DNA from: Deltaproteobacteria bacterium
Lineage (GTDB): Bacteria; Desulfobacterota; Dissulfuribacteria; Dissulfuribacterales; DYLC01
Reading direction: 5' to 3'
Assembly: GCA_028695735.1 (NCBI GenBank)
Contig: JAQVIJ010000009.1
Coordinates: 1-33,292 of the forward strand
Length of the DNA: 33,292 bases
Shown: piece after piece, positions 5,514 through 32,047 of the stretch
How positions within the stretch are numbered: position 1 is the first letter of the stretch
Layout of the letters: each line of letters starts with the position of its first letter
Position numbers and translations under genes: made by a program
The notes under the pieces: generated by a model
What the model was told of the DNA's origin: nothing
Database searches by the model: none
What the model saw: only the letters and a program-made list of their open reading frames with translations

Positions 5514-6664
5514 ACCTGCGCCGCATCCTCGCCGTGAGTTACAAGGAGTGGCGCGAGATCGTGCGCGACCGGCTGTTCCTGACCTTGGCCTTTGTCGTGC
5601 CCGCCGCTTTGATGCTGGTCTTCGGTTTCGGCCTGACGCTGGATGTGGAGCACCTCCCGTTCGCCGTGGTAGATCACGATAAGAGCGCCGCCAGCCGCGA
5701 TTACTTACACCGCTACATCGACTCGCGCTATTTCGACTACCGAGGTGATTTGGAAAGCGAGCGCGACATTGCTCGGCTCCTCGCCGCCAGCCGCATCCGG
5801 CTGGCCATCGTCATCCCGCCGCGCTTCGGCGAGCGCCTTGCGCAGGGACGCGCCGTGGCGGTGCAGACCCTGATCGACGGCACCTTCCCCTTTCGTACCT
5901 CCAGCAGCAAGGGTTATGTGGTGGCGATCAATAGCGCCTACAACGGCGAGCTGCTGGCGCGTTATATCTCTGACCGCATGGGCGTAACGCTCGATGCGGC
6001 GATGACGATGGCGCAGCCGGTCAAGGTGGAAATGCGCTACATGTTCAACCAGGAGATCCGCAGCACCTGGTCGATCGCCTCGGTGCTGGTGATGTTCGTG
6101 CTGATGATCACCCCGCCATTCCTGACCGCGCTGGGCGTGGTGCGCGAGAAGGAAAACGGCTCGATCTACAACATCTACGCATCGACCGTGACGCGCGGCG
6201 AGTTTCTCATCGGCAAGCTCGCGCCCTATGTCGGCATCTCCCTGCTCAACTTTCTCATCCTGTGGCTGCTCGCGACGCACCTTTTCGGCGCGCCGTTCAA
6301 GGGCGACCCGCTGTTCTTCGCACTCGCCTCGATCATTTTCGTCAGCTGCACCACCGGCATCGGCCTCTTGGTGTCGCTGTTCGTGCGCACCCAGGTGGCG
6401 GCGATGATGCTCACCGTGGTCGTCACCATCGTCCCCTCGGTGCTCTATTCGGGGCTGCTGGTGCCCATCGCCTCGATGGACCCGATGGGGCAGTTCGAGG
6501 CCCATCTGTTCCCCGCCATGTATTACGCCGACATCGTGCTCGGCAGCTTCCTCAAGGGGGTCGGGCTCGATGTGCTGTGGGGCAAGGCGCTGGCGCTCGC
6601 CCTCTACGCCGCCGTGCTGTGGACGGCGAGCTTCCTGCTTTTCCACAAGAGGCCGAAGGCATGA
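5510..6664 (+). CDS. ABC-2 type transporter permease 1 (YbhS-like)
   Basis: This inner-membrane permease subunit has 384 residues. The layout is typical of ABC-2 exporters of the YbhS/YhhJ group. There is a short cytoplasmic N-terminus (SYKEWREIVRDRLFL), a first membrane helix (LTLAFVVPAALMLVFGFGLT, ~20-40) and a large periplasmic domain (~45-180). About five further helices follow, beginning at SIASVLVMFVLMITPPFLTA, with the cytoplasmic VVREKENGSIYNIYAS loop expected to contact the ATPase. Start and stop both overlap the neighbouring genes by four bases (ATGA), giving tight translational coupling. The substrate cannot be read from the sequence; related systems export cationic drugs or dyes. 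Confidence 0.92.
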   Translation: MNLRRILAVSYKEWREIVRDRLFLTLAFVVPAALMLVFGFGLTLDVEHLPFAVVDHDKSAASRDYLHRYIDSRYFDYRGDLESERDIARLLAASRIRLAIVIPPRFGERLAQGRAVAVQTLIDGTFPFRTSSSKGYVVAINSAYNGELLARYISDRMGVTLDAAMTMAQPVKVEMRYMFNQEIRSTWSIASVLVMFVLMITPPFLTALGVVREKENGSIYNIYASTVTRGEFLIGKLAPYVGISLLNFLILWLLATHLFGAPFKGDPLFFALASIIFVSCTTGIGLLVSLFVRTQVAAMMLTVVVTIVPSVLYSGLLVPIASMDPMGQFEAHLFPAMYYADIVLGSFLKGVGLDVLWGKALALALYAAVLWTASFLLFHKRPKA

Positions 6665-7830
6665 AATTCCTCGATGATGACTTGCGCGGCAGGGTCGGCC
6701 TCTGGCTGTGGCGGTTCTGGGCGATGATGCTGAAGGAACTGATTCAGCTTGGACGCGACAGCCTGCTGGTATTCGCCATCACCTACCTGTTCCTATTCGA
6801 TGTTTACATGGCGGGCAATGTCGGCATGAACCTGAAGAATGCCGTGGTGACAGTCCACGACGCCGACCACAGCGCCGCTTCGCGCGAGCTGATCTATCGT
6901 TTTCAGCCTCCCTATTTCAAGCTCGGCGGTGAGATGGCGGATGGGCGCGCGGGGCAGCGGCTGCTCGATACCGGTGAGGCGCTGGTGGTGCTCGACATTC
7001 CACCACGCTTTGAGCACGATATCCAAAGCGGCAAGCCGACCGCCGTGCAGGTGCAGGTCGATGCCGCCAACACCGTGCTCGGCTTCCTGGCTGCGAGCTA
7101 CAGCGCGCAGATCATTGGCCAGTACGGCTTCGACCAGGCGCTCGCAAGGCTGGGCGTGAGCGCCAGCGCCCTGGAAAACGTGCCCATGATCCGCGACGAG
7201 CATCGCGTCTGGTACAACCCGAACCAGAAGGACGCCTGGTTCATGCCGCTTTCCGAGTTGCTGGTGGTCATCACCATCATGGCCATCATGCTGCCGGCGG
7301 CGGCTGCGGTGCGCGAGAAGGAGCGCGGCACCATCGAGCAGTTGCTGGTCACGCCGCTCTCGCCCATCCAGATTCTGCTGCCCAAGGTCGTCGCCATGAC
7401 CCTGGTGATCCTGCTCGGCACGGCGGCGAGCATCCTGCTCGTGCTGCACGGCGTCTTCGACTTTCCCATGAAGGGAAGTCTCGCACTCTTCTTTACTGTT
7501 ACCGCTCTCTATGCCTTCACCACGTCAGGCCTTGGCATCTTCATCTCCACGCTCGCCCGCAACCTTGCCCAGGCGGCGCTGCTTGCCATCCTCGTGCTGC
7601 TGCCGATGATCTTCCTCTCCGGCGCGTGGACTCCGCCCGAGGCGATGCCGGCGGGGCTGCGCGAAGCCATGGTTCTGTCGCCCCTGTATTACTTCATCGA
7701 GATGGGCTACGGCATTCTGCTCAAGGGTGCAGGACTGGACATCCTGTGGGATTCGCTGCTCGGCCTGGCGCTGCTCGGCATGACGATCTTCGGGCTGGGC
7801 GTGTGGCGTTTCCGGCGGCAGTTTGGATAG
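6661..7830 (+). CDS. ABC-2 type transporter permease 2 (YbhR-like)
   Basis: This is the second inner-membrane permease, 389 residues from the ATG at 6661, which overlaps the previous stop. It repeats the layout of its partner: WAMMLKELIQLGRDSLLVFA entering the first helix, a periplasmic domain (~45-195), then a cluster of helices starting at LSELLVVITIMAIMLPAAAA. The conserved cytoplasmic loop VREKERGTIEQLLVTPLSP follows. The reading frame is open far upstream of 6661, inside the first permease gene, but the ATGA overlap and the alignment of the N-terminus with permease 1 support 6661. With the TolC, HlyD and ATPase genes it makes a complete tripartite exporter. Confidence 0.92.
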   Translation: MKFLDDDLRGRVGLWLWRFWAMMLKELIQLGRDSLLVFAITYLFLFDVYMAGNVGMNLKNAVVTVHDADHSAASRELIYRFQPPYFKLGGEMADGRAGQRLLDTGEALVVLDIPPRFEHDIQSGKPTAVQVQVDAANTVLGFLAASYSAQIIGQYGFDQALARLGVSASALENVPMIRDEHRVWYNPNQKDAWFMPLSELLVVITIMAIMLPAAAAVREKERGTIEQLLVTPLSPIQILLPKVVAMTLVILLGTAASILLVLHGVFDFPMKGSLALFFTVTALYAFTTSGLGIFISTLARNLAQAALLAILVLLPMIFLSGAWTPPEAMPAGLREAMVLSPLYYFIEMGYGILLKGAGLDILWDSLLGLALLGMTIFGLGVWRFRRQFG

Positions 7831-7850
7831 CATATGAGTTTGGAGAGCGT

Positions 7851-8003
7851 ATGAGATTACCCAAGGGAGTTGTCGCACTCGGTCTGGTGAGCCTCACCAT
7901 GGACTTCTCCTCGGAGATGATCCACAGCCTGTTGCCGGTGTTTTTGGTGACGGTGCTGGGCGCGTCCGCGATGTCGGTGGGCCCTCTGTGCCAATATAAG
8001 TGA
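7851..8003 (+). pseudogene. Truncated MFS transporter (first 44 codons)
   Basis: After a good ribosome site (GGAGAG) the frame reads MRLPKGVVALGLVSLTMDFS, SEMIHSLLPVFLVTVLGASA, MSVG. This is the first transmembrane segment of a major facilitator family protein of the type that continues '...GLIEGIAEA'. At about 7982 it breaks into unrelated sequence (PLCQYK, stop at 8003). The downstream ~350 codons are absent. The position right after the exporter operon suggests it was the operon's last gene in the source genome. Confidence 0.7.
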
Positions 8004-8240
8004 GACATTTTCCCCTTGTCAAATTGAAGTAGGGCGGGTAGGAGATTTAGGATATGGATAGCAACAAAAAAAGGACAGTCACATTCTTGAATAGTGACGG
8101 TGCTGGGCGCGTCCGCGATGTCGGTGGGCCCTCTGTGCCAATATAAGTGAGACATTTTCCCCTTGTCAAATTGAAGTAGGGCGGGTAGGAGATTTAGGAT
8201 ATGGATAGCAACAAAAAAAGGACAGTCACATTCTTGAATA
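7947..8240. repeat. Perfect 147-bp tandem duplication (7947-8093 and 8094-8240)
   Basis: Copy 1 begins inside the broken MFS gene (GTGACGGTGCTGGG at 7947) and copy 2 begins at 8094. The two are identical over 147 bp by eye, and the bases just outside the unit (7946 vs 8093; 8094 vs 8241) differ. Each copy therefore carries the last 36 bp of MFS sequence plus 111 bp of unrelated AT-richer DNA ending GACAGTCACATTCTTGAATA. Perfect identity means a very recent duplication or an assembly artefact. The 111-bp part may be the end of a transposable element, but I could not identify one. Confidence 0.9.
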
Positions 8241-8487
8241 ATATTTTTAATCAAATTTTTTGATTAGTTATACCAATTCCTTCAGTCGCCCCTCTGGAAC
8301 ATCACGCCCAACCGTAAACGACGCTTAAAAAACACCAGATATCCCTTGAACTTTGTTTAACAGTGGATAAAGGCCAATTCTGCGATTTTTATTGGCAGAA
8401 ATGTCGGTTTAGCCATTACAGCAGGTCAATCCTACCTCAAGAGGATTAAAAGAAAAAAAGGAATAAAGCACCCATTATGAACATGAG
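8241..8487. other. Non-coding spacer with small palindromes
   Basis: No credible reading frame is visible. The AT-rich DNA starts with an 8-bp palindrome (TAATCAAA/TTTGATTA, ~8249-8267). At 8373-8400 two interleaved complements occur (GCCAAT with ATTGGC, TTCTGC with GCAGAA) that could form alternative hairpins or a small pseudoknot. A further hairpin is AATCCT (8428-8433) with AGGATT (8442-8447). It probably marks the return to host sequence and leads into the structured RNA candidate. Confidence 0.4.
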
Positions 8488-8620
8488 GTTCCGTAGGAAC
8501 GACAAGGGCGGCAGTGGTGGAGTGTTTGTGAAATAGGCGCCATGAAGGGCGCCGGCGGCGCATCCTGCCAGGGAGGGCAGTTATGCGCCGCATGGAACAA
8601 ATGCTTCACCGCTGCCGCCC
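8488..8620 (+). ncRNA. Candidate structured RNA: Y-shaped three-way junction with long closing stem
   Basis: A small hairpin (GTTCC 8488-8492, loop GTA, GGAAC 8496-8500) precedes a 115-nt fold. Bases 8506-8529 pair with 8597-8620 in an uninterrupted 24-bp stem containing four G-U pairs. Inside, GGCGCC 8536-8541 pairs with 8548-8553 around loop ATGAAG. GCGGCGCAT 8555-8563 pairs with 8583-8591, capped by CTGCC 8565-8569 with GGCAG 8576-8580 around loop AGGGAG. All four non-Watson-Crick positions are G-U on plus-strand RNA but would be A-C mismatches on the minus strand, so a plus-strand RNA is favoured. No U-tract follows, so it is not a simple terminator. I recognise no known RNA family. An inverted-repeat element (MITE) is the main alternative. 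Confidence 0.5.
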
Positions 8621-8632
8621 CAAGAGATTTAA

Positions 8633-9985
8633 TTAAATGAGTGCATATCTCTTGAGCTTGTTCAACAGCGTCTTGTAGCTCACTCCCAGAAGCTTGGCTG
8701 CCGCTGTCTTGTTGTAGCGAGTGGCGGCCAATGCCTCTTGAATGAGCCTTTTTTCCTGCTCTTCGGTGGCCTTGCGAGTGTGGCTGAAGAGCAGAGGTGA
8801 TGTCATGGCCTTTGCCTCTGTTTCTGTGTTGTCCTGGTCTGAATTTGCCAAAAGTTCGGCCTGTTGGCCTGAATGCCCGCTGCGCTTGAGCTGCCCTGCC
8901 AAAAAGTCATGGCTGATTCTGCCACAAGACATGGCAGCCGCCCTGTCCAGGAGATTGAAGAGTTCCCTCACATTTCCAGGAAAGCCATAGGACATCAAGA
9001 ACTGCACGGCCTCTTCGGTAATCTCCACCGGCTGGCCTAATATGCGCCTCAAATGGGCAAGGCGCAGCTGAATAAGTGGCCTTATGTCCTCAGGCCGTTT
9101 GCGCAGGGGAGGGATCTCCAGGGTCATCACAGCCAGGCGGTAATAGAGGTCCTGTCTCATGCGGCCCTCTTCCACTGCCCTTTTCACATCCTGATTGGTG
9201 GCTGCTATGATTCGGGCGTCGCTTTTTAGCTCCTTTTGGCCTCCAATGGGCAGGTAATGGCCGCTGTCCAAAAAGCGCAAGAGCTTGGCCTGAATGGGCA
9301 GAGGCAGTTCACAGAGCTCATCCAAAAACAAAGTGCCGCCATTGGCTTGAAAGACCAGGCCCTCTTTGGTCTCTGTGGCGCCGGTGAAGCTGCCTTTTAT
9401 GTGGCCAAAGAGAATGGAGTCCGTCAATTCCTGTGTGAGATTGGCGCAGTTCAGGGCAATGAATGCCCTGCGCTGGCTGCATCTGTGCAGAAACCTGGCC
9501 AACATGTCCTTGCCAACGCCTGTTTCGCCTGTGATGAGAATGGGAAAGGGCAGGGTAGCTATGCGCCTGGCGGTCGCCACTATTTCTGCCATGGCCTTGG
9601 AGGCAAAGACCAGCTCGTCTGTGTCAAAGAGGTCTAAGTGTTTGGCAAAGATGCGAGGCAAGGCCTCCATATCCACGGGTTTTTCCAGAAAATCCGCTGC
9701 GCCCAAGCGCATGGCCTCCACCGCCAATTGAATGGTGCCAAAGGCGGTGACAACCACTATCACACACTCGGGCCGTTTTTGTTTGGCGGCGGAAATGAGG
9801 TCAAGGCCCGAGCCATCGGGCAGTTGTATGTCCAATAAAATGCCATGGACCTCATGGGAGTTAATGGCATTCTGGGCGGCCTTTAGATTCCCTGCCTGAA
9901 TGGTGGAATACATGGGAGACAGGGCCTGTTCAAAGAGGTCCGCCAACTTTTGAGAGTCTTCCACTATCAAAATGGTCTTTTTCAT
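8633..9985 (-). CDS. Sigma-54-dependent response regulator (NtrC family)
   Basis: This DNA-binding two-component regulator, 450 residues, activates RNA polymerase with sigma-54. It has a receiver domain (1-120) with phospho-acceptor D52 in LLDIQLPDG and K102 in FLEKPVD. A central AAA+ domain (~125-360) has Walker A GETGVGKD (153-160) and Walker B GGTLFLDE (216-223). A Fis-type helix-turn-helix closes the protein (NKTAAAKLLGVSYKTLLNKL). The sigma-54 contact loop is GSFTGA (198-203) instead of the consensus GAFTGA. The ATG at 9985 was chosen because the receiver fold begins there; the frame stays open 13 codons upstream. No histidine kinase lies beside it. It is divergent from the protease gene at 10024, 38 bases away. 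Confidence 0.93.
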   Translation of the reverse strand: MKKTILIVEDSQKLADLFEQALSPMYSTIQAGNLKAAQNAINSHEVHGILLDIQLPDGSGLDLISAAKQKRPECVIVVVTAFGTIQLAVEAMRLGAADFLEKPVDMEALPRIFAKHLDLFDTDELVFASKAMAEIVATARRIATLPFPILITGETGVGKDMLARFLHRCSQRRAFIALNCANLTQELTDSILFGHIKGSFTGATETKEGLVFQANGGTLFLDELCELPLPIQAKLLRFLDSGHYLPIGGQKELKSDARIIAATNQDVKRAVEEGRMRQDLYYRLAVMTLEIPPLRKRPEDIRPLIQLRLAHLRRILGQPVEITEEAVQFLMSYGFPGNVRELFNLLDRAAAMSCGRISHDFLAGQLKRSGHSGQQAELLANSDQDNTETEAKAMTSPLLFSHTRKATEEQEKRLIQEALAATRYNKTAAAKLLGVSYKTLLNKLKRYALI

Positions 9986-10023
9986 GGCATGATAGCCTTT
10001 GATTCCTGTTTGTTCACGGAGCA

Positions 10024-11874
10024 ATGCCTCAAATGAAATTCATAAAATATACCACATATCTTCAGACTGCCATTCTAATCCTTCTTGTGCAGTGTTTCTT
10101 TCAAGAGGCCTCTGCCAGTTTAGATCCCTATGCCATTCTATTTAACTATTATGAGGCCATAGGCGGTCTGAAGCGCCTTCAGGCCATTAAATCCGGTTAT
10201 TCAGAGGGTACTATCCTTTATGACGGTCTACAAGGCCAAGTGCGCTCCTGGTACGAGAGGCCCTTGAGGTATCGCAGTGAAGAGGACTACGGCATTATTG
10301 CCCATGTGGAGGGAGATGACGGGTTTCAGACCTGGTTTCAGGACACCAACGGCCAAGTCCTGGTGTACAGAGACCAGGATACCCTAAAGCGCCGCATGGT
10401 CAGGGCCTTGTTGGAGGATTATGAGCACTTGAAGCGCAACTCGCCGTGGTTTTCTCTGAAATTTCAAGGTGTAAGGCCAGTAAATGGCAGGGAGTGCTTA
10501 GTAGTGGAGATGACCAATAGCATCAACTCCGATGTCACCTGGTATTTCTTTGATGCAGAGACATCCCTTTTGGTCACGACCATCGAAAGACAGCCGGACA
10601 TGGAGGTTCAGACCCTGTTTTCGGACTATCGGTGGTCTCACGGCATCTACACGCCCTTCAGAACTGAATCCCATATTCGGCCTCGCGACAAACGCATAGT
10701 AGTGGAGCTTTCTCGAAATGAGTTCAACATAGACTATGAGCCCACACACTTTTCTGTGCCACAGGGCTTAAAGGACTCTGTCTTTGAGCAGGCGAACATG
10801 GCAAAGGACATACCCTTTGAACTGGTGGAGGACAGCATCTGTCTGCCTGTCACCATTGCGGGCGACACAAGGCCTTGGATAGTGGATTCAGGGGCATCGG
10901 GCACGGTGATAGATGCGGACTATGCCCGGTCCTTAGGCCTTGAGCCTCAAACAGGCATAAGGGGATTTGGGTTTGGCGAGCACTTTGACCTGGCCTTTGT
11001 AAGGACTCAGGGCTATGGCGTAAAGGGGGTGCAAGTGGGGCCTCAGACGATTCTGGCGGTCAAGGGCCTTCAAGAACGCTTTGATGAGCCCAAAATTGCA
11101 GGGATTCTGGGATATGACTTCCTTTCCCGTTTTGTGGTGAAGATCGATTATGCCAGGCAGCTCATCTCCTTTTATGAACCCTTAAGCTTTTCATATGAAG
11201 GCGATGGAGTGATTTTAAATGCGCCCCTCAAATACAATACCTTCAGCCTGCCGGTGGTATTAAATGGCGAATATGAGGGCATGTTCAGCCTGGATACAGG
11301 GGCAGCCAGCGCCAGTATCTACTACAAATTTGCCAAAAAATACGGCCTATTGCACAAAAGGGGCATAAAACGGGCGGCAAGCGGATTAAATGGGGCATTT
11401 GTGCGAAAAGAGGTGAGGTTTGCAACTGTGCAAATAGGTGGGCTTTCCATACCAAATGCCATGTTGGCCGTGCACCTTGAGCCAGGCAAGGGCATGGATG
11501 CCAGTGGAGAGCTGGCCGGCAACCTGGGTAACTCCATTCTCAGGCATTTTGTGGTGTATCTGGACTATGCCAGGCAGCGCGTCATTCTTGAAAAGGGGCC
11601 GTGGTTTTACAGGCGCTTTAAGGCGGATCAGACAGGTGTGACCGTGGGCATAGATGCAGAGGGAATGCCCATGGTCTCCTATGTGGATGAGACCTCCCCT
11701 GGTTTTCGTGCGGGGTTGCGAACAGGGGATAGGTTTGTGGCCATAAACGGCATCAGGGTGCACAAAGGCATGGCCTCTGTTGTGAAGGAGGTGCTTTTGA
11801 CCTGGCCTGAAAAGGCCGTCAGAATAGGGGTTCAACGAGGGACAAGGCGGCTAACCTGTTATCTTCGCAAATAA
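10024..11874 (+). CDS. Secreted aspartyl protease with two retropepsin-like domains and a C-terminal PDZ domain
   Basis: This is a 616-residue exported protein with a signal peptide at ~5-32 (YLQTAILILLVQCFFQEASA). Residues ~33-245 form a domain reminiscent of LolA/RseB-like outer-membrane-associated folds (weak call). Two consecutive A2-type aspartyl protease units follow. The first has PWIVDSGASGTVID (Asp288) and the companion strand IAGILGYDFLSRFVVKIDYA. The second has FSLDTGAASA (Asp424) and NLGNSILRHFVVYLDYA. A PDZ domain closes the protein (~540-612, TSPGFRAGLRTGDRFVAING). Retropepsins normally dimerise to make one active site, so this chain carries both halves. Start ATG 10024 or 10033 (MKFIKYTTYL). 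The 3' end overlaps the convergent glycosyltransferase gene by 24 bases. Confidence 0.88.
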   Translation: MPQMKFIKYTTYLQTAILILLVQCFFQEASASLDPYAILFNYYEAIGGLKRLQAIKSGYSEGTILYDGLQGQVRSWYERPLRYRSEEDYGIIAHVEGDDGFQTWFQDTNGQVLVYRDQDTLKRRMVRALLEDYEHLKRNSPWFSLKFQGVRPVNGRECLVVEMTNSINSDVTWYFFDAETSLLVTTIERQPDMEVQTLFSDYRWSHGIYTPFRTESHIRPRDKRIVVELSRNEFNIDYEPTHFSVPQGLKDSVFEQANMAKDIPFELVEDSICLPVTIAGDTRPWIVDSGASGTVIDADYARSLGLEPQTGIRGFGFGEHFDLAFVRTQGYGVKGVQVGPQTILAVKGLQERFDEPKIAGILGYDFLSRFVVKIDYARQLISFYEPLSFSYEGDGVILNAPLKYNTFSLPVVLNGEYEGMFSLDTGAASASIYYKFAKKYGLLHKRGIKRAASGLNGAFVRKEVRFATVQIGGLSIPNAMLAVHLEPGKGMDASGELAGNLGNSILRHFVVYLDYARQRVILEKGPWFYRRFKADQTGVTVGIDAEGMPMVSYVDETSPGFRAGLRTGDRFVAINGIRVHKGMASVVKEVLLTWPEKAVRIGVQRGTRRLTCYLRK

Positions 11875-31915: not shown

Positions 31916-31944
31916 CCTTATGAACAAATGGAAAATGTTTCGGC

Positions 31945-32036
31945 TCGTTTCCCTACGCTAGTATGATCTAGATCAGGTTAAAGGGGTCGTGGCTACGGCC
32001 AACCTCTCAGCCTGCCCATGCAGGCTCCCCCAACGA
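31945..32036 (-). promoter_or_regulatory. TPP riboswitch (THI element) upstream of thiC-thi4
   Basis: The minus strand carries the full THI-box consensus: GGGGGAGCC, GGCTGAGAGG, GACCCCTTTAACCTGATCTA and CTAGCGTAGGGAAACGA. The P1 stem pairs TCGTT (32032-32036) with AACGA (31945-31949). It binds thiamin pyrophosphate, and the terminator just downstream should then stop transcription of thiC and thi4. Confidence 0.96.
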
Positions 32037-32047
32037 ATGAGAACAAG

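Follow-up and report, generated by a model that had tools for sequence, protein, structure and literature searches.

The intergenic segment at 8488-8620 of the window, the whole stretch of 33,292 nucleotides that was analysed, can be read as a long Y-shaped RNA on the plus strand, and the question is whether it is a single regulatory RNA, as the earlier note had proposed, or something else. It is best filed as a member of a real structured repeat family, MITE-like and with an unusual conserved three-way-junction core (Y-core), and not as a unique regulatory RNA.

The Y-shaped fold is real. In the computed structure, a 24-bp closing stem (8506-8529 with 8597-8620) and two inner hairpins meet in a three-way junction, just as had been read from the letters, and this Y-core, of the version that we call A (8506-8620, plus strand), is matched by our covariance model R1 at 8513-8613 with 113 bits. 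As RNA, the plus strand of segment 8488-8640 has a minimum free energy of -89.5 kcal/mol, where shuffled sequences average -52.3 (z -9.3, 0/200 shuffles); the minus-strand RNA reaches -75.3 kcal/mol (z -7.9), and the segment folded as single-stranded DNA reaches -50.5 (z -9.6). The two inner hairpins, described earlier as perfect, are both present, but only hairpin 1 (6 bp, loop ATGAAG) deserves the word, while hairpin 2 is imperfect: a small interior loop, with C facing UU, separates 9 bp from the 5 bp that lead to the loop AGGGAG. The four non-Watson-Crick positions of the closing stem are indeed G-U on the plus strand and A-C on the minus strand. A small 5' hairpin, GTTCC-GTA-GGAAC (8488-8500, plus strand), precedes the core and is mostly kept in other A copies, as judged by column identity. 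No known RNA family was expected here, and the element has no Rfam match at gathering threshold; a search of Rfam 15 at E<=5 with five loci containing copies and relatives returned nothing of note and nothing above the cut-off. Elsewhere in the window, a TPP riboswitch is present at 31933-32041 (minus strand, 73 bits, E 9.8e-13).

The neighbourhood might point to a simple local role. According to Pfam and the list of open reading frames, the core lies between two convergent genes, an ABC-2 transporter membrane gene (6262-7830, plus strand, start codon uncertain) and an NtrC-type sigma-54 response regulator gene (8633-10024, minus strand), so that any transcript running through it would finish within or close to a very stable structure. 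With a very stable fold on both strands between convergent genes, the feature might terminate transcription in both directions, or stabilise mRNA 3' ends, for the ABC and NtrC genes only. However, a U-tract is found on neither strand and 7800-8900 contains 0 terminator-like sites in either direction, which bears out the earlier view that this is not a plain terminator, and such a role leaves unexplained a family with about 100 copies in the genome. As an account of the feature it is very unlikely, and it could be a side effect in this window.

Counting copies in the genome, a check that the earlier note had itself proposed, left a stand-alone RNA unsupported, yielding about 100 cores. BLAST of the own genome (G000) gave 40 long copies at 90-97% identity, and R1 found 85 cores in the fetched loci and 13 in further stretches, that is at least 98, with one extra weak match at 30 bits left out; these counts, drawn from searches and fetched stretches, are lower bounds. 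Motif-based typing divides the cores into 49 of type A, the type in the window, and 49 of a second type, B, and 39 of the 49 A cores have a B core upstream in the opposite orientation at a median distance of 338 bp. A complete unit with both ends is L010:4554-5466 (913 bp), in which the left end AAGGACAGTCACATT is followed by about 300 bp, the B core, a spacer with CCTTTGAACTTTGGTTAA, the A core and the right end AATGTGTCTGTCCTT, while L011:3085-3533 is a window-like unit of 449 bp with the A core only. Ends of the AAGGACAG type stand on both sides of the L010 and L011 units as terminal inverted repeats, and a scan for the left end motif at up to one mismatch gives 73 sites in the own genome and 0 for a reversed-pattern control. 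No convincing open reading frame was found in the units read in the fetched loci. Many units are arranged in tandem, for example at L017, where the repeat recurs every 600-700 bp or so. Same-orientation arrays prompted a comparison with integron attC arrays, which was rejected by inspection since there is no cassette open reading frame and the second core is inverted. Two further arrangements of ends were seen: a 137-bp deletion derivative at L011:868-1004, which keeps both ends and only part of the A core, and six same-orientation left ends (AAGGACAGTCACTTTCTTGAACAAC) with no Y-core, at positions 871-1495 of L189 (79000-80599 of G000 contig C6), at a contig end.

The copy in the window can be dissected by comparison with these units. 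It is 83% identical to L011:3085-3533 over 8210-8637, and the boundaries of 8488-8620 drawn at first were too narrow, as homology to other copies extends from about 8210/8286 to 8637. All parts lie on the plus strand: a left element end AAGGACAGTCACATT at 8218-8232, found by the end motif scan; a probable remnant of the outer edge of a lost B core (GTCGCCCCTC) at 8285-8294, as suggested by comparison with L010:4554-5466 and L017; a non-coding internal arm at 8286-8487, which BLAST finds in most full A copies and which includes a motif close to CCTTTGAACTTTGGTTAA at 8343-8360 (motif scan); the A core; and a right arm AAGAGATTTAATTAA at 8622-8637, where comparison of copies shows that homology stops. 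The right end (GTGTCTGTCCTTTT in L011) and the B core are absent, so that the window holds a solo A copy ending at 8637, where the NtrC-type gene has its stop codon, within the right arm. The left end is present twice, at 8071-8085 and 8218-8232, because a perfect 147-bp tandem duplication (7947-8093 and 8094-8240) lies just upstream. In addition, window 7982-8085 is 87% identical to L011:778-882, and this segment is therefore itself repeated beside another copy of the element end.

Evidence of insertion comes from relatives. Over 46 genomes of the order, which we take to be Dissulfuribacterales, R1 matched only the own genome, G008 (at least 87 matches), G015 (35) and G006 (one; presumably Dissulfurimicrobium), and a phylum-wide draw of 395 genomes had matches in G000, G006 and G008 only; phages and plasmids gave no match and viral contigs none. 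G008 and G015 belong to a single genus of a different family in the order, and G015 has the same match positions and scores as the public metagenome-assembled record UBA5754. In both, the core sits inside a palindromic miniature inverted-repeat unit, CCTGAATCCGTGAG...CTCACGGATTCAGG, of 175-206 bp. Usually one arm is cut short and the unit measures about 175 bp; L101, a copy also labelled L053, is a full 206-bp palindrome. The end CCTGAATCCGTGAG occurs 270 times in G008 and 35 times in G015 (control 0), and exact target duplications of 5-6 bp lie outside the ends of 29 of the 38 G008 units with both ends. At the L164 insertion in G008, the G015 flanks are 90-92% identical with only 5 bp between the matched flanks, a clean aligned empty site, which is direct evidence of insertion; for a second G008 insertion (L156), the empty site has no clean alignment. 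Many near-identical copies with target duplications were the result that the earlier note had said would point to a transposon, and this is largely what emerged, with about 100 copies in the own genome and the duplications and empty site in the relatives. For the own-genome version, whose outer limits are not defined, no target duplication was visible beside five end pairs, and no empty site was found. At L057, L060, L072 and L075 of G015, a different type of arm, CCAGGGATCCGTCAAA..., surrounds the core, with an apparent 9-bp duplication GACCGGAAG at L060, and these copies look like nested elements. The single diverged Y-core of the one-contig genome G006 (L213:7393-7492, G006:C1:50392-50491) lies between two convergent reading frames, has CATGGA in both loops and a GGC...GCC stretch and TTTT downstream, and has a weaker fold (z -1.9); it resembles an old remnant, although it could be an ancestral locus.

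Pairing in the core is evolutionarily maintained. R1 was built from alignment A2, 18 diverse sequences of which eight are A copies, eight are B copies and two come from relatives. Standard pairs fill 97.1% of its pair cells, both sides have changed in 15 of its 37 pairs, and its covariation score of 0.413 compares with 0.155 after shuffling and no more than 0.110 with slid structures. Covariation was seen again within the own genome (A4) and within the relatives (A5; 19 pairs), although both counts lean towards the model because both alignments were fitted to it, and the own-genome signal reflects few independent events because the contrast is mostly A versus B. Homologues that break the pairing would have weakened the proposed structure; instead, the stems in all three alignments vary and largely stay paired. 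Template-switch repair of imperfect palindromes could be a source of matched changes, but by itself it would not keep G-U positions or conserved loops.

The strand on which the fold is kept is a separate matter. Cells with G-U outnumber those with A-C by 257 to 11 in the own genome (A 148 to 3, B 109 to 8), and columns by 7 to 2 in A and 12 to 4 in B. In the relatives, by contrast, there are 25 G-U and 33 A-C cells, 14 of the latter from one poorly paired position, and 15 columns of each kind. The argument for plus-strand selection from the G-U positions thus holds as a bias in the own genome and vanishes in the relatives, and since no bias is seen there it is limited to the own-genome family, where it is largely an inherited state. 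A multicopy functional plus-strand RNA, either an sRNA or a UTR element selected as a transcript, might account for the strong covariation, for the 257 to 11 excess and for junction and loop sequence that is conserved between lineages. However, the A and B cores are opposed within one own-genome unit, and therefore no single transcript shows both in the G-U form; four inherited positions dominate the G-U cells, no terminator is present, and the relatives show no strand bias. Nor is orientation relative to genes biased in G008, where a crude gene caller placed copies at 14 divergent, 12 convergent and 8 and 5 tandem sites. We therefore regard a functional plus-strand RNA as distinctly improbable.

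The conserved loops raise another possibility, that the Y-core might have descended from a CsrA/RsmE-titrating RNA with GGA exposed in both loops and two junction strands. GGA is kept in loop 2 in 42 of 43 A copies, 38 of 42 B copies and 54 of 55 relatives, with a variable preceding base, and in junction J1 in 53 of 55 relatives, and the G006 copy resembles PrrB_RsmZ at a sub-threshold, chance-level 16.1 bits (E 1.1). In loop 1, GGA is found in only 16 of 43 A and 15 of 42 B copies, in junction J3 in 26 of 42 B copies and 41 of 55 relatives, and the Rfam score is far under the threshold of 44. Because GGA retention is uneven and the RsmZ match is at chance level, such an origin would be extremely unlikely.

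The best reading is a new family of MITE-like elements around a conserved three-way-junction core, and the window feature, which has neither B core nor right end, is very probably one copy of a non-autonomous, MITE-like mobile element. As in MITEs, the elements are short, have no coding capacity, occur in many copies and have terminal inverted repeats, with target duplication in the relatives. A transposase supplied from elsewhere might move the unit via its terminal inverted repeats, and a DDE-type enzyme acting in trans would suit the relatives, whose target duplications of 5-6 bp are as in DDE-type transposition. The Y-core may be kept since its folded form, whether extruded DNA, single-stranded DNA or RNA, would aid persistence of the element in the intergenic regions that receive copies, possibly through insulation from transcription or as a recognition site. 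No transposase bounded by either set of ends was found. Among the ends listed for G008, the search for an autonomous parent gave two long end-bounded units of 1.3-1.75 kb, which contain a nucleotidyltransferase/HEPN-like pair or ordinary genes and no transposase; in G000 there was no end pair with insertion-sequence-like spacing. At L087:454-1767, on contig C6 of G008, a pair of the relatives' ends encloses about 1.3 kb with two open reading frames that read as nucleotidyltransferase-like and HEPN-like, and this may be a composite unit with a toxin-antitoxin module as cargo.

An alternative enzyme would be an HUH (Y1) transposase, for which the core, at least in the own-genome version, might be a single-strand hairpin substrate, REPIN- or IS200/IS605-derived-like. 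The strand-specific fold, the inverted B-A pair resembling a giant REPIN, the target duplication not seen in the own genome and the Y1_Tnp genes of G000, G008 and G015 would all suit it. However, the Y1 loci read in these genomes and others of the order had no core or either end set nearby, the sole end match being a weak one at the edge of L129; the cores are 115 bp and not 20-40 bp; and Y1 transposition is known to make no target duplications, which the relatives have. Overall, a Y1 substrate has a slender chance. In G018, of the same order, at least ten same-score matches to a Y1 transposase gene were found (e.g. at L122 and L146), apparently an active IS200-like element unrelated to the Y-core repeat.

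Besides the target duplication and empty site not found for the own-genome version, and the transposase not found with either set of ends, two facts are uncomfortable for the mobile-element reading: the conservation of the core exceeds what a passive passenger needs, and DNA transposition alone does not account for the G-U bias of the own genome. The core fold is kept between lineages whose ends and arms are different, the GGACAG-type ends of the own genome being distinct from those of the relatives (AAGGACAGNCACATT versus CCTGAATCCGTGAG). The Y-core might be a module under selection of its own, either a structured RNA or a DNA recognition element, which two or more mobile elements with unrelated ends have taken up within one bacterial order and amplified along with themselves, a reading that we consider unlikely. 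If true, it would be the bacterial counterpart of a SINE with a structured RNA inside, and the own-genome strand bias and retained GGA loops would reflect a protein-binding RNA function.

As a MITE-like family, the Y-core repeat adds an undescribed kind of mobile element that has reached about 100 copies in a genome of 2.2 Mb; the literature searched gave no earlier description of it. It is unusual in that a three-way-junction core is held by compensatory change while ends and arms are replaced between lineages, and with so many natural copies the reason why tiny mobile repeats keep an RNA-like fold becomes testable. Moreover, strong folding, G-U asymmetry and covariation are insufficient for calling a riboregulator, and copy number and insertion evidence should be checked first.

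Several known systems resemble the family in part. Correia/NEMIS, ERIC and YPAL/RU-2 are bacterial MITE-like repeats (reviewed in PMC2229807), and most such elements are A+T-rich with TA at their ends and long stem loops (PMC2229807). Like them, the Y-core repeat is short, non-coding and multicopy, with terminal inverted repeats, target duplications and possible stable stem-loops in transcripts; unlike them, as compared by description only, it has a GC-rich three-way junction with lineage-wide compensatory stem changes. The bcr1-bcr3 repeats of the Bacillus cereus group are MITE-like and intergenic, often in UTRs or intergenic parts of operons (PMC3446304), but belong to a different phylum, and the likeness is one of description only. 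PrrB/RsmZ CsrA-titrating RNAs (Rfam RF00166) also have GGA in hairpin loops and single-stranded parts, yet they are one gene and not repeated mobile copies, and the G006 copy scores 16.1 bits against their gathering score of 44. REP families and REPINs, the REP-RAYT palindromes (PMC3733652), share the inverted palindrome pair, high copy number and intergenic location, whereas the Y-core repeat has 115-bp three-way-junction cores, no linked RAYT and, in the relatives, target duplications.
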